DNA from: a virus
Direction: 5' to 3' (one strand)
Virus record (IMG/VR): IMGVR_UViG_3300031841_002839
Coordinates: 1 to 20,515 of that record
DNA: 20,515 bases
Both the position numbers and the translations under genes were made by a program. Each line of letters starts with the position of its first letter. Position 1 is the stretch's first letter. The notes below the pieces were generated by a model. That model saw nothing but the letters and a program-made list of their open reading frames with translations. It did not search any database and was not told the DNA's origin. Shown one piece after another: positions 1,728 to 15,808 of this stretch.

Positions 1728-3749
1728 TTAAATCGTTGTTAAAGTTGTTAATTCAGCATCAGTTAAAGCAGTATCATATACTTTTAGTTCTCTTACTCTA
1801 AAGCCATTATTAGAAAATGTTAATTGATTCATACCACTTGGCATTGTTGCATTTGTGTCAGATACAATTTCAGAACCATTAAAATACACCTTAACATTAT
1901 TCAACTCGTATTTAAATGCTATCTTAAGGTTTTGAGTAATATCACTTGCAGTGTAAGTTATTCCAACTTGCTCAACACCTCCATCAAGTATAAAAAATTG
2001 CAAAGCATTTGGATTACCTATATCAGTTCTAATTTGAACACTATCATTAAGTGATGCTGAATCTCTTAAATAAACACCTGAAAAAGAAGAGTATTCATCA
2101 GTTAGAAAACTACCCTCAAAATACAAAACTCCCTCACTTGAATTAATTACATTACCCAATGAACTATTACCCGTAACTGCATCTGCTATTCTTGTAACCG
2201 CACTTCCGTTTGTTGGTATGTACGAAGTCATATAATCTCCACCACCTAAAACTCCATCATCTTCTAATTGCGCACCCCATACTTCAACCTCATCTCCTGA
2301 TGTATTTATTCTAACGTATGCTCTACCATTTGTACTCGTTGAAGTAGCAGTAACACTAAATCTTTGCCATTCGCTTGTAACTGAAATAGGTGTAGCAACA
2401 TTTTCAATAGCCACAATACTAATAACCCCATTACCTGTAACTCTTCGCACCCAAAAAGAAACCGTGTATGTTTGTCCACTCGTAATAGTAATTACATCTT
2501 GTAATTGTTGACCAACTGCGGTAGCAGTAACCTTAACCGCACTTAAGCTACCATCAGGTGCAAGAGTTGTACTTGCCGATAATGTAGCAGTGCTTAAAGA
2601 AGTCCAATCTGTTTGAGTGAAATCTTGCGAATAAGGTAATAGATTTCTTCTTTGTGGTTCTAACAACAATTCACCTACTCCATTAGTATAATCAATTCTT
2701 GGTACCCCAGTTGCAGCCGTTTCGATTTCACCGAATTGATCAACATAAGTTGCGGTACTTGTTCTTGAACTTGTTAAATCCTTTGAAGTATCTTTGTTGT
2801 AAACTCGAATTACATTGGTGTTGATTGCCGAAGGAATAAGATCGATAACCGGTTTAATTCCTAAAGATTTATCTAATGCTAAAGAATACGCACCTTCGTT
2901 TGGAAAATAAGTATCACCGGCCGTTTCTCGCGTTCTTGCCCAACTTTCTAATAAAGATTGACTTAATGATAAACCTTGCAATGTTATGTTATCGAATTTT
3001 CCGTTGAAGTTTGGCGCGGTAACATCACCACCAAATAACGCATCTTCGCTTCCATCAATACCAGCAGTTTGGAAATTCCAACCCGTTGTTTCGTTGTATC
3101 TTAATATTTGACCGGTTCCAGCAGCCGTATCACGCACCGCAAATTCACCATTATCGTAACTTAAAACTTCATAAGTTTTTCCGGTTGTGGGTGTTGTATT
3201 AGTTAATTTAACACCAATTCCACCCCCTTGACCACTTAGGCCACTTATTGTTTGTGATTCGGTAAAATTATTATCAACATTAGTATAAGCCAATGTAGTT
3301 GGTAATGAATTATCAATCTTTGCCCATCCTGTTGCAGTTTTTACGGCCCAATCATTTACTTTCCAATCAGTAATACCATCCAATGATGTTGAACCATCAA
3401 CCGAAACAATCCAATAATAACCAGTTGCAGTTATTCCGGTTATATCTGGTGTGTTTGTCGATGCATCCCAATTTCCTTGCGGAATTAATGCGCCTTGCAA
3501 CGCATTTATAGCAACATCTAATTGGCCTTTATTAACCGCTTCAGTTGAAGATGTTGCATCAGCAACTTCAAACGTTTCTGTACTATCACCATTCAAATCG
3601 GCCTTTCCGGTTAATAATGGTTGAATCAATGTTGCGATTTGCGTTATCGTTGCTTTTTCAGCCAATCCGGTTGTTGGATCAGCAAACGGAACTAAATCCG
3701 TACTTACTGGAGTTCCAGCGCCTAACTCGTTTATTTTTATTGTAGCCAT
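1728..3749 (-). CDS. Tail fibre / receptor-binding protein with carbohydrate-binding-like and LamG-like domains
   Basis: This 673-residue protein is the predicted host-recognition fibre. The N-terminus (1-60, MATIKINELG...) is the usual attachment segment of Bacteroidota phage fibres. Residues about 90-148 (GNWDASTNTPDI to KTATGWAKIDNS) form a module common in fibre shafts. From about 360 the segment EPQRRNLLPYSQDF starts a jelly-roll module like the CBM4/9 fold (FWVRRVTGNG at 432-441, WGAQLEDD at 491-498). The C-terminus (about 535-673) resembles a LamG/concanavalin A-like lectin, with FNGSEIVSD and the family-like ending RELKVYDTALTDAELTTL. It lies between the tail-tube-like genes and the lysis cassette, the expected place for an adhesin. 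Base composition changes inside the gene near residue 340-360 (see findings). The receptor is unknown. Confidence 0.75.
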   Translation of the reverse strand: MATIKINELGAGTPVSTDLVPFADPTTGLAEKATITQIATLIQPLLTGKADLNGDSTETFEVADATSSTEAVNKGQLDVAINALQGALIPQGNWDASTNTPDITGITATGYYWIVSVDGSTSLDGITDWKVNDWAVKTATGWAKIDNSLPTTLAYTNVDNNFTESQTISGLSGQGGGIGVKLTNTTPTTGKTYEVLSYDNGEFAVRDTAAGTGQILRYNETTGWNFQTAGIDGSEDALFGGDVTAPNFNGKFDNITLQGLSLSQSLLESWARTRETAGDTYFPNEGAYSLALDKSLGIKPVIDLIPSAINTNVIRVYNKDTSKDLTSSRTSTATYVDQFGEIETAATGVPRIDYTNGVGELLLEPQRRNLLPYSQDFTQTDWTSLSTATLSASTTLAPDGSLSAVKVTATAVGQQLQDVITITSGQTYTVSFWVRRVTGNGVISIVAIENVATPISVTSEWQRFSVTATSTSTNGRAYVRINTSGDEVEVWGAQLEDDGVLGGGDYMTSYIPTNGSAVTRIADAVTGNSSLGNVINSSEGVLYFEGSFLTDEYSSFSGVYLRDSASLNDSVQIRTDIGNPNALQFFILDGGVEQVGITYTASDITQNLKIAFKYELNNVKVYFNGSEIVSDTNATMPSGMNQLTFSNNGFRVRELKVYDTALTDAELTTLTTI

Positions 3750-3756
3750 ATTATTT

Positions 3757-4236
3757 TTATGCCGTTAAAATTTCGTTACCGTTTCCATCTTCGATTGAAT
3801 TACCATTTCCATCACCAAGAACGTAAGTTAATTCACTTGTTGATGTTGGTTGCCCATAACCTAAGATTGTACCGCTAAATGTAATAAATTCATCAATTGA
3901 ACTTGGTAATTCAACTTGCGTGAAATACCCACTTCCAAAATCAACGAATCTTTTATCACTATCTTCAATTTTCCATTCAATCAATGTTCTTGATCGCTTT
4001 AACGTTTTAATTTCATTGTAAGAAATTGTTTGCGAATCGTCAAAAATTGCGTTGAACGATATTTCAAATCCTTGATTCAACACTTCGTAAGAACCCCATC
4101 CACCGGTTTCGTTATTTGCTTTATCCAATGTTTCGATATTTTCGGTAAAACTATTATCAGTCAAACACCCAATCGGATAGTATGTTCCGGATTGTTTTAT
4201 ATACAATATCGTTGTTGTTCCTTTGTAAAACGTCAT
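3757..4236 (-). CDS. Tail-tube-like protein, third paralogue
   Basis: This 159-residue protein matches the putative major tail tube (9230-9667) and its immediate upstream neighbour. Shared features are the N-terminal pattern ...ILYIKQSGTYYPIGCLTDNS followed by NIETLD (residues about 9-40), a WGSYEV strand, TLIEWKIED near 85-93, and a C-terminal DEFITFSGTILGYG where the homologues have DEFATYSGTL or DEFISFDGEI. This is a small beta-sandwich of the tail-tube type. It overlaps the gene before it as TAATG (4236). It differs in a C-terminal extension of about 25 residues with a doubled DGNGN unit (LGDGNGNSIEDGNGNE), possibly a fibre-docking or calcium-binding tail. It may be a tail-tip ring, tail terminator-like or fibre-adaptor protein rather than a second tube. 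Confidence 0.65.
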   Translation of the reverse strand: MTFYKGTTTILYIKQSGTYYPIGCLTDNSFTENIETLDKANNETGGWGSYEVLNQGFEISFNAIFDDSQTISYNEIKTLKRSRTLIEWKIEDSDKRFVDFGSGYFTQVELPSSIDEFITFSGTILGYGQPTSTSELTYVLGDGNGNSIEDGNGNEILTA

Positions 4237-4640
4237 TATTTACTTGCTAAAATTTCGCCATCAAACGAAATAAATTCATCAATTGCATCATTTTCACTTA
4301 ACGAAACAATATAACCACTTCCACTTTCACTTATTGATGTATCTGCATTTTCAACTTTCCACGAAATAAGCGTTTTATTACGCTTTAAATCTTTGAGTTT
4401 ATCTAAACTTATTTTTGTAAAATCACCACCGGTGAAACGTGTGTTAATTAATAAGCCGCTGAAACTTATTGATATATTTTGTTTTGTAGGAACAAACGTG
4501 TTCCATCCAGAATTATCACGTGTTGTGGTGTTCAATGTTTCGATTGTATCGGCCATTGAGTTTTCAGTTAAACACGCAACCGGTAAAAAACCACTACCGA
4601 AATCAAGATACAAAATATTATAAGTTCCGTCTATAAACAT
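4236..4640 (-). CDS. Tail-tube-like protein, second paralogue
   Basis: This 134-residue protein aligns by eye along its length with the neighbouring paralogue at 3757-4236 and with the major tail tube: NILYLDFGSGFLPVACLTENS and DTIETL at the N-terminus (residues 8-36), TLISWKVENAD in the middle, and DEFISFDGEI at the C-terminus. The N-terminal alignment also fixes the start codon at 4640. It follows the large tail-tip gene rather than the chaperones, so it is more likely a distal tail or baseplate ring than the main tube. A copy of the 23-bp promoter-like motif sits 5 bases before the ATG, so its mRNA may be nearly leaderless and made separately from the upstream tail genes. Confidence 0.65.
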   Translation of the reverse strand: MFIDGTYNILYLDFGSGFLPVACLTENSMADTIETLNTTTRDNSGWNTFVPTKQNISISFSGLLINTRFTGGDFTKISLDKLKDLKRNKTLISWKVENADTSISESGSGYIVSLSENDAIDEFISFDGEILASK

Positions 4641-4644
4641 ACTT

Positions 4645-4667
4645 ACAAATATAAGAAAAATTTATCA
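4645..4667 (-). promoter_or_regulatory. Promoter-like motif, copy 4 (before tail-tube paralogue 2)
   Basis: On the minus strand the motif ends TATATTTG (4646-4653), matching the Bacteroidota -7 consensus TAnnTTTG, and is preceded by the same AT tract (ATAAA-TTTT) as three other copies at identical spacing. It overlaps the stop codon of the upstream tail-tip gene (4665-4667). The box ends 5 bases before the ATG at 4640, so a transcript starting at the usual distance would be leaderless or nearly so. Confidence 0.55.
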
Positions 4668-6911
4668 AGTTCGTATTTTTGGTTTAACCGTTTCGCCATA
4701 ATCTTCGGTTTGCGCATATAATACCTCATCATCTTGGAAATCGTAATTTAACAACTCAACGTTTTTTAGTGTTGTTACGTTATTATAAGCATCGTAAACC
4801 CAATTTACCGGTAACATTTTTTCTTTTACGTTGTTGATATTTATTACACTAAACAACGGAACGAAACCAAATACATCACCTTCAAACATTATTCTTGGAT
4901 TCCAACCCATTCGAATACGATCTTCAACCATGATTCTTAAAATAGGTTTTAATTCAGTAACACCATTTCGATTCCATGTTTCTGTTGGTGTTGTTTGATC
5001 ATTCTTGTATATTGTTGAATAATACGTTGCATCAGCAACATCACCGTTTAAAACTTTCTTAACATCATCGGTTGCCGGTGTGTAATTTTCGGCTTTTTCA
5101 ATGGTGTAATTCAATCCTTTCGGTAATTCTTGACCGGTGTAAGATTGCATAACTACTTTTTCAATAATTATTGGCGCTTCAGCATTAGAATCACCAGGAT
5201 TAAAAATAACGATGAAAATATTGCCGTCACTTTCCGGAACAACATCGCTTCTTAATTGTAAACTGAAATTCTTTTCATTCGCTTCAATTGTATGGCTTAT
5301 TAAAACACCGTCATTTTCCAAATCACTGCCATCAGAAATCCAAACACCATCCTTGTTCATATAATAATAATTCGAACCTTTATAATAAACAATTTTAAAA
5401 TTGATTCTACATTTAAAAAGATAAAAAGTCAAAGGATTTGAAAAAACAACTTCTGTTTGAATTCGCGGTTCTCCACTTACCGTATAATCATCCAAAGTTG
5501 CTTGGATATCAATTGAACTATCCGGCCGATAAATTAAAAACCCACGATTTGGATAGGCCTGTATAATTTCACCACTTCCGGAAATTGTCCATTCCGGAAT
5601 GGTTGTTGAATTTGTCCAATCTAAATTTACGTTTTGATAATATGGAAATACATTGCCATACTGCAAGTTTACGCGATACGCACCCAAAGAACGCTTGATT
5701 GATTTTTGTTGATTTGCGTTAGCGTGATGTGGATAATAACTATCGATTTGACTACCTAACGAAAACGAAATATCTTTAGCGATCGTTTCTGTTCCGGATA
5801 TTAAAACCCCATCTTTATCGTAATTATAAAACGTTATATTAGCGTTATCATGTGCTTCAATTGGTCTGTATATGTACCAATATCCACCATTTTGTAATAA
5901 CGTAGCGTTGAACAATTCTAAACATGATTTCAGAACTTCTTTACATGATAACGCATCGTTATCATCATTATTTACAAAACGTTCGCTATTTGCGTAAATA
6001 TTAGATAATACATCAACACCACTTAACCCATCGTAATACACGTTTACCGAAGTTCTAAATGGTAATTCTAAATTTGTTTTCGCTAAACAATTTGTAATAA
6101 TTTCAATAAACGATTGTTTACCGCTGAATAACAACCTATCTTGATTCGTGTACGCAATATCTTCTAAATATCCAAGACCATCAATCGCTTGTAGGTTTAT
6201 ATACCATTTATCTTCAACGTAGTTTTCATATAACCCTTCTGGCGATAACCATCCGATAAATTCAGTAACACTATTTCGGATATATTCAACCTTGTAAACC
6301 CTTTCTTGTTCGGTGTACAAATCTTCAAACGTTAATGATGTATTTGCTAATAAATTAACGTTCAACATTTGTGGTCTTAATGATGTCATTGTATCTTCAT
6401 CATCTTGTGATTCCAAAGTACAATTTCCTTCGACTTGAACGTATTCCGGTGTTGTGTTGGCCTTGTAAATATTAACGCGATGCTGAATATCTTTAACATC
6501 TTTAAATTCGAAATAATACGCGGTTGTAGTTGGTTCCGGTTCTATTGATTCACTTCGGTATGTTAATTTTACATCAGATGGTGTTGTTGAACCATTGTAT
6601 GTTGCGTTTTGGAAGAAAATATCACTACTTTCACCAGTCAAAGTAAGTATATCAGCCGAACGCGTAATTGTAAATTGTATCGAAGAACCATAATCGGTTT
6701 CAATAGCATCTTTTAAATTGATCGCACTACCTTCACCAACAACACCGAAAGTACCAGTTAAAACTTCGTTAATTTGTCGATTTGTATCAACAAACGTATA
6801 TGTATATGAAGTTGTTGTTGTTGTTCCCCTATTAAATACTTCGAAATAAATTACATTTGTTGCCGTTATATCGGCTTGAAAATCGATTAAAAGTTTGTTA
6901 ATTACTGCCAT
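4665..6911 (-). CDS. Large tail-tip / distal tail protein (putative)
   Basis: This 748-residue protein directly follows the tape measure gene and overlaps it as TAATG (6911), the position of distal tail or hub proteins. Residues about 1-130 look like a separate beta-rich domain rich in Thr and Ser. From about 130 the segments EFKDVKDIQHRVNIYK, NVNLLANTSLTFEDLY, FIGWLSPEGLYENYVED and LQAIDGLGYLEDIAY are of the kind seen in tail-tip proteins of Bacteroidota phages. Residues about 300-350 contain two Cys in LSCKEVLKSCLELFNATLL, then GGYWYIYRP. The C-terminal region after about 600 has RNGVTELKPILRIMVEDRIRMGWNPR, perhaps a conserved assembly segment. No enzymatic motif is visible. It probably forms the tip hub that carries the fibre and the tube-like rings encoded next. 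I infer the role from position, size and these segments. Confidence 0.6.
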   Translation of the reverse strand: MAVINKLLIDFQADITATNVIYFEVFNRGTTTTTSYTYTFVDTNRQINEVLTGTFGVVGEGSAINLKDAIETDYGSSIQFTITRSADILTLTGESSDIFFQNATYNGSTTPSDVKLTYRSESIEPEPTTTAYYFEFKDVKDIQHRVNIYKANTTPEYVQVEGNCTLESQDDEDTMTSLRPQMLNVNLLANTSLTFEDLYTEQERVYKVEYIRNSVTEFIGWLSPEGLYENYVEDKWYINLQAIDGLGYLEDIAYTNQDRLLFSGKQSFIEIITNCLAKTNLELPFRTSVNVYYDGLSGVDVLSNIYANSERFVNNDDNDALSCKEVLKSCLELFNATLLQNGGYWYIYRPIEAHDNANITFYNYDKDGVLISGTETIAKDISFSLGSQIDSYYPHHANANQQKSIKRSLGAYRVNLQYGNVFPYYQNVNLDWTNSTTIPEWTISGSGEIIQAYPNRGFLIYRPDSSIDIQATLDDYTVSGEPRIQTEVVFSNPLTFYLFKCRINFKIVYYKGSNYYYMNKDGVWISDGSDLENDGVLISHTIEANEKNFSLQLRSDVVPESDGNIFIVIFNPGDSNAEAPIIIEKVVMQSYTGQELPKGLNYTIEKAENYTPATDDVKKVLNGDVADATYYSTIYKNDQTTPTETWNRNGVTELKPILRIMVEDRIRMGWNPRIMFEGDVFGFVPLFSVININNVKEKMLPVNWVYDAYNNVTTLKNVELLNYDFQDDEVLYAQTEDYGETVKPKIRT

Positions 6912-8569
6912 TAATCAAATTTTAAAGTTCCCCCAAGATTTCTGTTTTGTCGTAATGTATTCGATAATACACCAACTAATTTTGTACCGGCAATTTCAAA
7001 TACAACCGTTCCACCGCCATTACCGCTAAATCCGGAAGTAAACGAACCACCGCTTGATGTTTGCGTTGAAGTTGATGTTGAAAATGCACCGCCACCACCA
7101 CTACTTTTGCCTATTCCACTAAACGCACTTGCCACGGCAGCGGTAGCACCGGCAATTAACGCTGGTAAAACAAACGCGCCAAATGGTGTTTTTGATGCGG
7201 TTTCACTTGCGGATGCAATCGCTGATCCTTTTGCTTTTACGGCATCTAAGGCAACTTTCTTTTTAGTAAATACGGCATCTTGAGCCAAGTATTTAAACAT
7301 TGATTGAATAATACTCCCCAAAAATGCGCCAAATATACCATTTGTTTGTGTTAATGAACTCGCTATATTGTTGCCTAAATTGATAAAAGAATTAGAAAGC
7401 GCATCTTTCACCATGTTAGTTTGCTCAATCATGGTTATATATTTTTCACGCATCGCAATAGTAGCGGAATCCAAAGAATTTATAATTGGCGCAACTATAT
7501 TTTCTGTTCCTAAAACACCTTGATCAAATGCGCCCTTCAACCCTTCAAACACCGAGCCTAAACTTGATTCATCAAATTCAATGGCTTCGCCAAATATAAT
7601 TTTTGGTTTTACCTTTATTGTTTTTTCGGTTTTTGTTGTTCCGCCAAGTATTTTATCTATTGAAGCACTTGAACTTTCGAGAAGTTTTTGAATTGCAGTT
7701 GTAGCGTTTTTAATAACTTTTTCTTCTTCACTTATTGCATCTTTTCTTTTTTGTGAACCCCTACCAACCGCAGTTGTGTAAGTTTCACTTGCCGAAAACA
7801 AAAACGCAAATCCAGAACCGACTTTATCTAAAACACCAACAAAATCATTTGCAGATTTGCTTTCCGCTTCAAATTTTTTCGCAGCCGCTTCGCTTATTCT
7901 ATTTGATAAACCTTTTATTAATGCTTGTTGAACTAATGCTTTTGTTAATTTATCAACTTGTATCGCGGTTTTTTCGCTATTAATTCCCTCAAGTTTTAGG
8001 TTTCCTAAATAATCTGGATATAACTTATTTATTTTTTCAACCGCTTCTTGCCTTCTTTTTCTTGAATTGTTTTCGTTTTTAGCAACACCAATCAAGGCAT
8101 TTAAAATAGCAATTTCACCTTCAACGCTACCTACTAAATCTTTTTGTGCTTCGGCTAATTTATTTGATTCTTTTGCGGTTTTAAACAACTGATCACCAAA
8201 CGCAACCATTAATGAAGTAACTGCCGAAACGGCTAATAAAATACCAGCCGGACCAGTCAACGTTGATAACATTGCCTTTAACGCTGCCTTTGAACTTCCG
8301 GTTGATTTCTGAAGATATCCGAAACTTTGTGTTAATTGCGTAATGTTGTTCGCTACACCTTGAATCCCAAATGGTGCATCCTGGATAACCCTTGAAAATT
8401 CGTTTACGGCTGGAACTGCATTGGCTGAACTTTTACCGATTTTATCGAATCCTTTCGAACCCCTTCCGGCTTGTTTATCGAATTGCAATAATTTCTTTTC
8501 GGCTTGTTTTAAACCCTTCTGAAACTTTTGAACTTCTGCTACTAATTCAACTCTTAATTTTTCGCTCAT
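6911..8569 (-). CDS. Tail tape measure protein
   Basis: This 552-residue protein sets tail length and is predicted to enter the host envelope during DNA injection. The N-terminus is a charged helix (residues 5-33, VAEVQKFQKGLKQAEKKLLQF), followed by the segment VIQDAPFGIQGVANNITQL (61-79), a pattern I associate with tape measures of this group. A hydrophobic segment lies at about 106-124 and a second one at about 460-485, then a Gly/Ser-rich stretch (about 486-525). The long middle is helical and Ala/Lys-rich. It follows the G/GT chaperone genes and precedes the tail-tip gene, the canonical place. Applying about 0.15 nm per residue gives a tail of about 80 nm, short for a siphovirus. The start overlaps the end of the GT frame by 23 bases. 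No peptidase or transglycosylase motif is visible. Confidence 0.88.
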   Translation of the reverse strand: MSEKLRVELVAEVQKFQKGLKQAEKKLLQFDKQAGRGSKGFDKIGKSSANAVPAVNEFSRVIQDAPFGIQGVANNITQLTQSFGYLQKSTGSSKAALKAMLSTLTGPAGILLAVSAVTSLMVAFGDQLFKTAKESNKLAEAQKDLVGSVEGEIAILNALIGVAKNENNSRKRRQEAVEKINKLYPDYLGNLKLEGINSEKTAIQVDKLTKALVQQALIKGLSNRISEAAAKKFEAESKSANDFVGVLDKVGSGFAFLFSASETYTTAVGRGSQKRKDAISEEEKVIKNATTAIQKLLESSSASIDKILGGTTKTEKTIKVKPKIIFGEAIEFDESSLGSVFEGLKGAFDQGVLGTENIVAPIINSLDSATIAMREKYITMIEQTNMVKDALSNSFINLGNNIASSLTQTNGIFGAFLGSIIQSMFKYLAQDAVFTKKKVALDAVKAKGSAIASASETASKTPFGAFVLPALIAGATAAVASAFSGIGKSSGGGGAFSTSTSTQTSSGGSFTSGFSGNGGGTVVFEIAGTKLVGVLSNTLRQNRNLGGTLKFD

Positions 8570-8840
8570 GGTATTGTTCTTGCGCTTTTTTAATCGCGTT
8601 TAATTGTGCATCACTTATTTTCTTTGAACTACCTAACTGCATGAATGAATTTATGCTTTTCGGTATTCTTTTTGGATCTCGATGCGGTGCAACCGTGTTA
8701 TTGTACATCAACAATCGCAACATTTCCCACTTTTCTTTGTTAACCCTTTTATACGAAAATAGGCGGAGTTGGAATTCCGCCCATGTCATTTCGCAATACT
8801 CTTCGTATGTACAATTTAATTCACCCAAAGCGGTAGCCAC
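8547..8840 (-). CDS. Tail assembly chaperone T segment, probably made as a G-T frameshift fusion
   Basis: This 97-codon frame has only a GTG (8840) as possible start, but it is open upstream through the A10 run and lies exactly in the -1 frame of the preceding chaperone gene. A -1 shift would join G to ...NWGADVVATALGEL and give a 222-residue fusion (8547-9214). The T part contains a Trp/Glu-rich segment (EYCEMTWAEFQLRLFSYKR) and a basic helical C-terminus ending HERKIKS. G and G-T proteins bind the tape measure and recruit tail tube subunits in lambda-like phages, and the position between the tail tube and tape measure genes fits. Independent translation from GTG cannot be excluded but looks unlikely given the frame relation. 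Confidence 0.75.
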   Translation of the reverse strand: MATALGELNCTYEEYCEMTWAEFQLRLFSYKRVNKEKWEMLRLLMYNNTVAPHRDPKRIPKSINSFMQLGSSKKISDAQLNAIKKAQEQYHERKIKS

Positions 8841-8857
8841 TACATCAGCACCCCAAT

Positions 8858-9214
8858 TTATTTTTTTTTTGACGTTTCAGCGTTTTCTTCGCTTTCCGGA
8901 ACGTCTTTTACCAAACTTTCGGTAAACGCTTTAATAAAATCTTGAACTTGTACTGAACCAAAGCCACCATTATCTTCAAGTACATCGACAAAATCATAAT
9001 AACCAAGACCATTATTTTGGCCACGTCTTTTAAGATTGTGTAAATAACTTTCATGCATCAATGTTGGAATAAATTTGAATGGATTTCTATTTAACTTTTC
9101 ATCAATTTGTTCTAAAGTGATGTTTTGTTCATCTAAAAATTCACCCAAAAACGAAAGCCCAAAAAAGAACTCGAATTCGTTTTTACCGAAAACAATTGTT
9201 TTTCTATTCTTCAT
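8858..9214 (-). CDS. Tail assembly chaperone G
   Basis: This 118-residue protein is the predicted zero-frame chaperone that, with its frameshifted G-T form, coats the tape measure protein during tail assembly. It is acidic and mostly helical (FGLSFLGEFLDEQNITLEQI, residues about 18-37; FVDVLEDNGGFGSVQVQDFI, about 75-94) and ends in a low-complexity tail (ESEENAETSKKK). The terminal Lys codons form the slippery run. It lies 15 bases after the tail tube gene and is followed by the tape measure. Similarity to lambda G is one of size, place and frameshift rather than sequence that I can align. Confidence 0.78.
   Translation of the reverse strand: MKNRKTIVFGKNEFEFFFGLSFLGEFLDEQNITLEQIDEKLNRNPFKFIPTLMHESYLHNLKRRGQNNGLGYYDFVDVLEDNGGFGSVQVQDFIKAFTESLVKDVPESEENAETSKKK
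8861..8870 (-). other. Slippery A10 run for predicted -1 ribosomal frameshift
   Basis: The minus strand reads TC followed by ten A and then TAA, so the zero frame is TCA AAA AAA AAA TAA and the -1 frame is open through the run and on into the T segment. Slippage on A-AAA-AAA immediately before the stop is a classic arrangement. Only a weak stem (GTAG/CTAC) lies downstream, so stimulation may come from the stop codon itself. Transcriptional slippage on the A run could give the same fusion. Confidence 0.75.
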
Positions 9215-9229
9215 AAATTAAGGTTTTTG

Positions 9230-9667
9230 TTATGCGTTAGGATCAACAGTCGTAATTAAACCGGTGTTTTGTAATGTTCCGCTATATGTCGCGAATTCAT
9301 CACCAGCACTTGCAGTTAATTCCAAATCAGACAATACCGCCGTACCATAATAATTAGTAGGTGTAGTTTGGTCTGTTGATAATTTCCAAGTAACCGTTGA
9401 ACCACTTGCAACGTTGATGAAATCCAACAACGCATCGAAATCAGTTTTTCCAGTTTCGGTTTTGATGTAAATTGCTTCGAAAGAAACTTCAGATGAAGTT
9501 GAACCGGCTTGTCTAATCACTAAACCTGGATCGCATTTTGTTTGCGTTTCAATTACGTTTCTTACAACGCTCAAACTGTTTGACGTTAAGCATCCGATAG
9601 GATCGTAAGAATCAACACCATCCCAAATAGATAGTATCACCGCTTCGCCTTTAATAAATGTACTCAT
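9230..9667 (-). CDS. Major tail tube protein
   Basis: This 145-residue protein is predicted to form the hexameric rings of the tail tube. Key segments are VILSIWDGVDSYDPIGCLTS and IETQTKC (residues about 10-45), VSFEAIYIKTETGKTDFDAL, a strand with TVTWKLSTD (about 95-103), and DEFATYSGTLQNTG near the C-terminus; this is the small beta-sandwich layout of TP901-1-like tail tube proteins. It lies between the neck genes and the G/GT chaperones, where the tube gene is normally found. Two shorter paralogues follow the tail-tip gene. Its 162-base upstream gap holds a promoter-like motif and a 14-bp palindrome in the leader, which suggests separate, possibly strong, expression, as expected for an abundant structural protein. 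Confidence 0.78.
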   Translation of the reverse strand: MSTFIKGEAVILSIWDGVDSYDPIGCLTSNSLSVVRNVIETQTKCDPGLVIRQAGSTSSEVSFEAIYIKTETGKTDFDALLDFINVASGSTVTWKLSTDQTTPTNYYGTAVLSDLELTASAGDEFATYSGTLQNTGLITTVDPNA

Positions 9668-14090: not shown

Positions 14091-14246
14091 TACCTCTTCG
14101 AAAACAATATCATTTAATTGATCTGGTAATGGCTTCGAATGATCGTTAGAACCATCCAATATTTCTTTCGGAATACCCAAAGGAAATGCGCCACATTTTA
14201 AATCACCTAAATAATGTTTGCAATTTATACATTTATCTACTGTCAT
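14088..14246 (-). CDS. Small Cys-rich protein next to MuF (52 residues)
   Basis: An ATG at 14246 opens MTVDKCINCKHYLGDLKCGA, continues FPLGIPKEILDGSNDHSKPL and ends PDQLNDIVFEEV. Cys6, Cys9 and Cys18 with His11 (C-x2-C-x-H-x6-C) could bind a metal. The body contains a F-P-x-GIP-x-EIL-x-G-x-NDH-x-KPLP pattern that I recall from short proteins encoded beside MuF/portal genes in phages of very different hosts. It overlaps the MuF gene as ATGA (14243-14246) and is followed at once by a terminator, so it is almost certainly translated. It may help head assembly or act with the MuF protein; no function is established that I can name. Confidence 0.78.
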   Translation of the reverse strand: MTVDKCINCKHYLGDLKCGAFPLGIPKEILDGSNDHSKPLPDQLNDIVFEEV

Positions 14247-15808
14247 AATGTTTTAAATAATTTTAATAAAGTCATAGGCACGTTTTTATCGCCATTTAAT
14301 CGCCAATAAGTGTACCATTCAACTAAATATTCTTTGAAATTTGTTTCGCCATATTCGGAAATACTTCGCTTTTGCCAATCGCCAACCGCTTTATATAACC
14401 TAAGTTGTTGATAATGCCGGTTGTGGCCAATTTCATGAATTAGCGTTTGACTGAATTTATCAGCAACTGAATCCGCTTGACTACTTACGGACCAATATTT
14501 GTTCGGATAATTTGTTTTAATTTTATCTTGTAATTCTTTTATACTTTGATTTACTTGTTTTTTGTACTTGTTTATTTTTCTTCTAAACGATAACGAAACT
14601 TCAACGTTTCCGTATTGATTTTCAACGTCATTCAAATATCCTTGCAGTTGGTTAATTTGTTCGTTGTAAGTTTTCAGTTCGGCTTTTCGGTGTTTTCTTA
14701 ATAAAGGTACGTTTAATTGAATTTTTTTATCACTACTGAAATAACGGCCATTAAAATTTGATTGCGGAGAATTAGTTACAGATAATTCGTTTAAATCTAA
14801 TTTACTGAACGCGTTTTCTTTCTCCATTGTCTTTAGTACCGAATTATATTCATCCGGTTTTAAACCCCTTAAAGATACCTTTTTTATACCTAATTTTCTG
14901 ATTCTTATTTCTGCATCACCTACCGTTTTGGCTGGTATAAAATTATTCGATGGTGATGTTGTTTGCGCTATTGATAATGGTGTTATTGCCCTTCCGGCAC
15001 TATCTACCCTTATAATATTCCCACTCGAATCCCTTTTTACCCTTTGCGCAACCGTGCATCTGCAATTTATAACATTACCGGCTGAACCATTTTGTTGATC
15101 GCCTGGATATTCCAATTGTTCACCACTTACATTGAACGATTCGCTTAATAATACCGTTTGGCCATTCATTGAATAATGATCAAATTTATCTTCCGGAATT
15201 CTTCGCGTTCTGCTATCTTGCGCCGATATCCAAACCTTTTCCATAACAACACCACTTACTGCCGATGCTCGAACGGCCGCAAAATTAGATGCGGTTGTTG
15301 TTTCAGTTCTTGCGATTCTCATTCCTTGCCATCGATAAAATTCCCTTGAACGAATGTATTTGTATATCGCATCCGTTACTTCAGAAGTTGTTTTGCCTTC
15401 GTTGTATTGTTTGGTGATTAACTCCATTAAAAAATCAATGTAGTTTTGTCGAACCGTTAAAATCTTTGATCCACCTTGACCAAGTAACATTTTTTGAACA
15501 TCGGCTAAAAACAAATCAGCGAATGTACCAAACGAAAAATCCTTTTGGTTTATTTGTCTGTTAATATACGCGCCAACCCTACGGCCGTGCTTCAAACCTA
15601 TTTCTTTATATATTTCTAAATACATTTGTTCGAATACGCTTTTATCAACGTACATTTCCAAAAACGCAATAACATTATATTGATTCGAACGTTCAAACGG
15701 AATCTTTGCCGTATGTTCTTTCAAATGCTTCCGGATAACACGAAACGCTTGTTTTTCATATCTTCCGTGCCATCGCATCCATTGTTGTCGAAATGTATTT
15801 AAACTCAT
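14243..15808 (-). CDS. MuF-type minor head protein with C-terminal zincin metallopeptidase-like domain
   Basis: This 521-residue protein has two parts. Residues 1 to about 258 form a portal-associated MuF (Mu gpF / SPP1 gp7) domain: helical N-terminus, ARTETTTASNFAAVRASAVS (167-186), KVWISAQDSRTR (191-202), FDHYSMNGQTV (209-219), and the closing NVINCRCTVAQ (245-255) with the family's Cys pair. Residues about 290-521 are an unusual extension with a charged helical linker (about 375-432), then an HEIGH zinc motif (458-462, in QTLIHEIGHNRHYQQ) and a downstream segment SEYGETNFKEYLVEWYTYW (484-502) in which Glu493 could be the third ligand. This resembles zincins such as the anthrax lethal-factor-like group. 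MuF proteins can enter the host with the DNA, so the domain may be an injected effector. It is TAATG-coupled to the portal gene (15808). Confidence 0.85.
   Translation of the reverse strand: MSLNTFRQQWMRWHGRYEKQAFRVIRKHLKEHTAKIPFERSNQYNVIAFLEMYVDKSVFEQMYLEIYKEIGLKHGRRVGAYINRQINQKDFSFGTFADLFLADVQKMLLGQGGSKILTVRQNYIDFLMELITKQYNEGKTTSEVTDAIYKYIRSREFYRWQGMRIARTETTTASNFAAVRASAVSGVVMEKVWISAQDSRTRRIPEDKFDHYSMNGQTVLLSESFNVSGEQLEYPGDQQNGSAGNVINCRCTVAQRVKRDSSGNIIRVDSAGRAITPLSIAQTTSPSNNFIPAKTVGDAEIRIRKLGIKKVSLRGLKPDEYNSVLKTMEKENAFSKLDLNELSVTNSPQSNFNGRYFSSDKKIQLNVPLLRKHRKAELKTYNEQINQLQGYLNDVENQYGNVEVSLSFRRKINKYKKQVNQSIKELQDKIKTNYPNKYWSVSSQADSVADKFSQTLIHEIGHNRHYQQLRLYKAVGDWQKRSISEYGETNFKEYLVEWYTYWRLNGDKNVPMTLLKLFKTL

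Follow-up and report, generated by a model that had tools for sequence, protein, structure and literature searches.

Gene layout of the window

The window, a 20,515-base IMG/VR fragment, carries siphophage late genes on the minus strand. A terminase, portal, MuF-like protein, prohead protease, capsid, connectors and tail terminator are followed by the tail-side set of tube, tape measure protein (TMP), hub, two tube paralogues, fibre and lysis genes. Among named phages, Flavobacterium phage 11b and Cellulophaga phage phi10:1 are its closest relatives. A megablast search of the tail module against phages returned no match. The tail genes are ordered w1 tube, two small ORFs, TMP, hub, w2, w3 and fibre; there is a 1-nt overlap of w2 with w3 and a gap of 7 nt before the fibre gene. 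The features are as follows.

9230..9667, minus strand: w1, major tail tube protein of 145 aa, before the TMP (PF06199, 2.8e-9; PHROG 1407; upstream clade)
8858..9214, minus strand: small ORF in tail assembly chaperone position (by position only; weak PHROG hits)
8547..8840, minus strand: small ORF overlapping the TMP start, in second assembly chaperone position (PHROG 16333, unknown function, 1e-10)
6911..8569, minus strand: TMP of 552 aa (PHROG 25337, tail length tape measure, 6e-20)
4665..6911, minus strand: baseplate hub or tail tip protein, Mu gp44-like, 748 aa (PHROG 33803, 2e-115; AF2; Foldseek)
4236..4640, minus strand: w2, first downstream tube paralogue, 134 aa (PHROG 1407; downstream clade)
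3757..4236, minus strand: w3, second downstream tube paralogue, 159 aa (PHROG 1407, PF06199; tube fold by AF2/Foldseek)
3757..3846, minus strand: C-terminal tail of w3 with two DGN repeats, approximately residues 131-159 (class B, which pairs with IKINEL-type fibres)
1728..3749, minus strand: tail fibre of 673 aa with an IKINEL-type N-terminus and a CBM_4_9-like region (PHROG 5939, tail protein, 2e-44; PF02018 sub-threshold), the proposed partner of the w3 tail

On the head side, the MuF-like protein (14243-15808; PF04233, 4e-7) has a long C-terminal part with HEIGH, a zinc-metallopeptidase-like motif, in SQTLIHEIGHNRHYQQ. This part carries no Pfam name and could be a MuF-linked enzyme or a toxin-like domain.

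Family, spread and selection of the downstream tube copies

The proteins w1, w2 and w3 are homologous tail-tube proteins. The three ORFs that a first-pass annotation of this DNA had read as tail-tube-like paralogues are all present on the minus strand, and they share the sequence blocks on which that reading was based: an N-terminal block (IGCLTSNS in w1, VACLTENS in w2 and IGCLTDNS in w3), a central W-K strand (TWK, SWK and EWK, respectively) and a C-terminal block (DEFATYSGTL, DEFISFDGEI and DEFITFSGTI). Their homology lies far above chance in PHROG, Pfam, within-record and profile-profile searches. With w1 as the query against its own record, w3 is retrieved at E 4e-10 and w2 at 1e-6. All three match PHROG 1407 ('major tail protein'; w1 1e-24, w2 3e-19, w3 2.5e-17), and w1 and w3 score above the Pfam cut-off for PF06199 (Phage_tail_2), with w2 just under it (20.7 vs 23.8 bits). 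A profile-profile comparison aligns the upstream and downstream tube families over 141 columns (probability 99.9, E 1e-33).

The structure predicted for w3 (AF2 from 68 aligned sequences, pLDDT 78.8) is a tail-tube fold and not a differing one. Its best matches among solved structures in Foldseek are the monocin tail tube (1e-8), GTA, lambda gpV (4.5e-7) and 80alpha tubes, with baseplate tube rings of PVC and AFP (6j0n_n, 6rao_F) further down the list, and it is nearer to tubes than to Dits. The long hairpin and the W-K strand are kept, leaving the tube fold intact. The same fold is assigned to w2 because this protein is 39% identical to w3 and belongs to the same profile family. The doubled DGNGN tail noted at the end of w3 is also real, and tails of the same kind occur in single-copy relatives (contigs L055, L131 and L260).

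The prevalence of downstream copies was counted in viral contigs found by the hub only, so that the paralogue itself does not bias the count. This search gave 47 loci, 42 of them with room after the hub. A downstream tube gene is present in all 42, as one copy in 36 and as two in six, although these are not 42 independent lineages because some are near copies (for instance the window relatives L007-L009, 97-98% identical). Searches with the paralogue itself enlarged the set to 284 loci, or 158 once overlaps were removed. The related phages with a downstream copy are mostly phages of Flavobacteriia; a scan of genome contigs with profile A4 found a single Lacinutrix MAG. Flavobacterium phage 11b (gp44) and Cellulophaga phage phi10:1 (gp089) each have one downstream copy, which is the usual number among relatives, and both were already annotated as tail proteins. 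Their neighbours were considered as second copies and rejected, 11b gp45 being fibre-like and phi10:1 gp090 giving no match. In phi12:1, an outgroup related distantly by its hub and with adjacent TMP and hub genes, no downstream tube is found; gp59, the gene after its hub, was considered as a hidden paralogue and is not tube-like. The extra copies behind the tip gene are thus real, but they are less of an oddity than the first-pass annotation implied, a single downstream copy being standard for this family. No literature report of a downstream tube paralogue was found in a search with partial coverage, most subscription journals lying outside it.

A few contigs differ in layout. L282, a distant relative, has two tube-family genes side by side ahead of the TMP (250-1098) and none after the tip gene. 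In L065 (7792-9901, minus strand), inverted portal-like and MuF-like genes lie between the hub and the downstream tube, within the tail module; the L059 group appears to have the same insertion, judged from a 2.2-kb gap.

In a tree of 139 tube domains, the 82 downstream and 57 upstream sequences separate without a single misplacement (support 0.906). From this clean split, the downstream copies make up a separate lineage of long standing, within which the tandem pair of the window is a younger duplication. The nearest single-copy relative of this pair in the tree is L131. Two downstream copies also occur in L020/L021/L046, L268 and L281, and the pairs of L020 and of the window are separate duplications in the tree, in which L268 and L281 were not placed. 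The downstream clade has moreover lost the invariant KC pair of w1-type tubes, which is replaced by RD followed by a conserved GW. The change sits between the first two long strands, and in gpV-like tubes the loop between these strands contacts the next ring. The loss of KC therefore fits a different neighbour, and such consistent differences between the clades suggest different ring contacts.

Both w2 and w3 are under purifying selection, with dN/dS values of 0.036 (w2) and 0.044 (w3) against L007 and of 0.17 and 0.03, respectively, against L009, which rules out either of them as a decaying copy. A duplication of the tube gene that is non-functional or serves dosage only would agree with the shortness of w2 and with the rarity of a second tandem copy; the dN/dS range of 0.03-0.17 for both copies and the ancient separate clade largely refute this explanation and leave it a negligible probability.

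Adhesin fusions and matching of tail and fibre

Of 92 upstream tube proteins, 91 go no further than the barrel; the exception, L153, has a He_PIG Ig-like domain. The downstream copy usually extends 10-40 residues past the barrel; the extension is shorter than 10 residues in three cases, which are of the w2 type, and w2 itself ends at the barrel end and has no C-terminal tail. Eight contigs from five groups carry about 200-440 extra residues on the downstream copy. In L020 (9898-10944), L021 (2294-3343) and L046 (9898-10944), these comprise two TSP1 domains (PF19028, 3e-26), which to our knowledge are unusual on a phage tail protein. L088 carries a PKD domain and DUF285 (PF03382, 4e-60), whereas L278 and L280 carry PKD and a C-terminus that ends much like that of L088, DUF285 itself not being detected. 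The fusion in L178 is FN3-like by a weak match (0.03), and the 360 aa added in L229 contain no named domain. Such adhesion domains (TSP1, PKD with DUF285, FN3-like) occur in relatives only and are absent from the copies in the window.

At the loci of L088, L278 and L280, no fibre gene stands at the expected place after the fusion, though one may lie elsewhere in these genomes. Instead, the fused gene is followed by an ORF of 66-77 aa and then by an M15-type peptidase. The small ORFs look similar in all three contigs (L088 11749-11982, L278 7328-7528, L280 7331-7531) and may possibly encode an assembly factor. Because the adhesin-joined copy takes over the place of the fibre, the downstream tube is best read as a fibre anchor. 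Separately, L281 (3915-5080) encodes the hub, an 88-aa ORF and two tube paralogues, after which no recognisable fibre gene follows.

For the non-fused contigs, the C-terminal tail was compared with the 60 N-terminal residues encoded by the next gene, leaving 68 pairs after removal of near copies. Tails and fibre starts were sorted into seven classes each by separate patterns. The tail class equals the fibre N-terminal class in 63 of the 63 pairs in which both could be classed, 37 of which fall in one class, with the reservation that the patterns were written post hoc from the list. Pattern-free distances were used as well, since the class patterns had been drawn up after viewing the data. Tail and fibre distances correlate at 0.85, and a partial Mantel test that removes the distance of the tube body retains 0.571, a value reached in none of 2000 permutations. 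The control was the hub C-terminus, encoded next to the opposite end of the tube gene, and it gave 0.07. On a tree built from the barrel only, the eight labels need 11 changes, where the minimum possible is 7, and classes C and F each have at least two origins on well-supported branches. Tail and fibre start have thus probably been exchanged together more than once.

This covariation does not by itself prove contact, because joint recombination of neighbouring gene ends can also yield it. Under that explanation, which concerns the docking step alone, the ends move jointly while the proteins do not touch. In agreement with it, the fibre gene usually begins within about 15 nt of the end of the tube gene. 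Yet it accounts neither for the covalent fusions in which the fibre gene is absent nor for the start of the variable part at the end of the barrel, and the hub end that flanks the tube gene on its opposite side shows no covariation with the tail. We regard recombination as the sole cause as rather unlikely; the hub control and the fusions argue for contact between tail and fibre without amounting to proof. In L268, the order of hub, tube, a short fibre-start-like protein, tube and fibre looks as if tube and fibre had been copied as one cassette.

A proposed place at the tail tip

Most siphophages have dit and tal after tmp, the tube and the hub being joined by a Dit hexamer (PMC7291167). Here, the gap between TMP and hub is at most 60 nt in 123 of 134 contigs, so that no dit gene lies in between; two larger gaps (L004, L086) hold small ORFs of 65, 73 and 132 aa, which fall outside the tube family. 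The hub model (AF2, pLDDT 76.5, with residues 1-131 variable and poorly modelled) matches Mu gp44 (1wru, E 8e-6), MuSo2 (3cdd) and CBM folds in Foldseek; these matches came from fold comparison alone, the hub profile finding none among solved structures by sequence. An inserted carbohydrate-binding-like jelly roll at residues of about 430-600 might, on the basis of the model, be a second sugar-binding site at the tip, beside the fibre. In Mu, the tube-like gp43 forms a hexamer located, along with the gp44 hub, at the base of the tube (PMC11915804). In these phages, the sole tube-fold candidate for such a gp43-like place is the downstream tube paralogue.

We consider it probable, if by a modest lean, that the downstream paralogue is a tube-derived distal ring that substitutes for a Dit or tube initiator, with the adhesin either anchored to it or forming part of it. 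Six downstream copies would form the last ring, between the final tube ring and a trimeric Mu gp44-like hub, a place that belongs to Dit in most siphophages and, in Mu, to the tube initiator gp43. One face of the barrel would stack against the tube and the opposite face against the hub, and the C-terminus would point outwards, either docking a fibre through a short matched tail or bearing an adhesin covalently. After the tandem duplication in the window, w3 would have retained the fibre-docking DGN tail and w2 would have lost it. The docking idea does not explain w2, as w2 has no tail; this copy would probably form a second ring, or plain subunits between the hub and the fibre-bearing ring, and both two stacked rings and one mixed ring may be envisaged. 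For the extra copies, the first-pass annotation had suggested either specialised rings at the tip or an adaptor function for the fibre. The fibre role is backed by the adhesin fusions, the three contigs without a fibre gene and the matching of tail and fibre classes, while a ring and its location are what we infer. The distal-ring reading is weakened by the position of the gene, which follows the hub and does not lie between TMP and hub as dit does, and phi12:1, having no downstream tube, indicates that such a ring is not needed with every such hub.

Two other placements of the protein can be considered. As a peripheral adaptor, the tube fold would be reused off-axis in a collar piece resembling BppU or p132, by which fibres are fastened either to the hub or to the final ring of the tube. 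All fibre and adhesin evidence fits this equally, and an order of hub, adaptor and fibre is typical of upper baseplate and collar proteins. Against it, both the long hairpin and the W-K strand of an intact tube fold are retained, and the junction of tube and hub would be left without a dedicated protein, given the absence of dit; an adaptor therefore seems unlikely to us. Alternatively, the downstream copies could be minor tube subunits within the shaft, among the w1 rings, displaying adhesins along it in the manner of decorated or extended major tail proteins, as might be expected from a protein of the same fold and family as w1 and from the one upstream tube with an Ig-like decoration (L153). 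This is distinctly unlikely in our judgement: the gene lies next to hub and fibre in every contig, the C-terminal tail tracks the fibre and not the hub, and the loss of the KC pair and other changes in the clade suggest ring contacts different from those of the shaft.

More tentatively than the distal ring itself, and with somewhat more doubt than belief, we propose a wider picture. In a siphophage lineage without Dit, a tube gene copied behind the hub may have become a general-purpose adhesin socket, its tail acting as a matched plug for interchangeable fibre classes, a plug that covalent adhesins can replace; the window would then combine plugless and plug-bearing rings. If so, plain gene duplication would have turned a tube protein into a fibre socket, as another route to the function served elsewhere by Dit, evolved Dits and tube initiators. 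The class of the C-terminal tail would be a readable rule that predicts the fibre class, showing how host-recognition parts are swapped among phages infecting a major group of marine and freshwater bacteria, and the 'major tail protein' labels downstream of the hub would be accounted for.

The closest parallels are 11b gp44 and phi10:1 gp089, tube-family proteins that, as in the window, come right after an orthologous hub and ahead of the fibre genes. They are 35-36% identical to w3 and differ in being one downstream copy and not two; their records say only 'major tail protein' or 'phage tail protein', with no tip role. Among characterised systems, Dit ring domains are built on the tube fold, and CBMs are found on evolved Dits (PMC7291167, PMC10688798). 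Dits and evolved Dits (TP901-1, p2, SPP1, 80alpha, skunaviruses) are, like the protein proposed here, tip ring proteins of tube fold that bear carbohydrate-binding or adhesion domains, and the w3 model shares their tube-fold ring domain. However, the dit gene lies between those for TMP and Tal and the downstream paralogue after the hub; Dit has a belt and peripheral (galectin/OB) domains, whereas w2 and w3 consist of the barrel with at most a short tail; and the downstream copy, unlike Dit, is paralogous to the tube, with about 30% identity. In JBD30, the Dit contains two tube-like domains bearing oligosaccharide-binding decorations and contributes to fibre attachment (PMC11445458). The downstream copy may be likened to JBD30 gp49, whose decorated tube-like domains form fibre attachment sites at the junction of tube and hub (PMC11445458), but gp49 has two tube-like domains per chain and is a trimer, whereas w2 and w3 are single-domain proteins.

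In the tube initiators Mu gp43 and Pvc5/Afp5, a tube paralogue is placed between tube and hub, and here, too, a tube paralogue accompanies a gp44-like hub. These are contractile systems, while the window belongs to a siphophage, and the downstream copy differs from them in having no helix-rich or LysM part and in being tied to fibres. A variation on this theme, in which a downstream tube paralogue would fill the role of an evolved Dit or tube initiator, is our best reading of these comparisons. Finally, extended or Ig-decorated major tail proteins such as lambda gpV resemble the fused downstream copies in joining a tube fold to an extra C-terminal domain. There the shaft protein itself is decorated, whereas here the shaft is almost always bare and the downstream paralogue carries the decoration.
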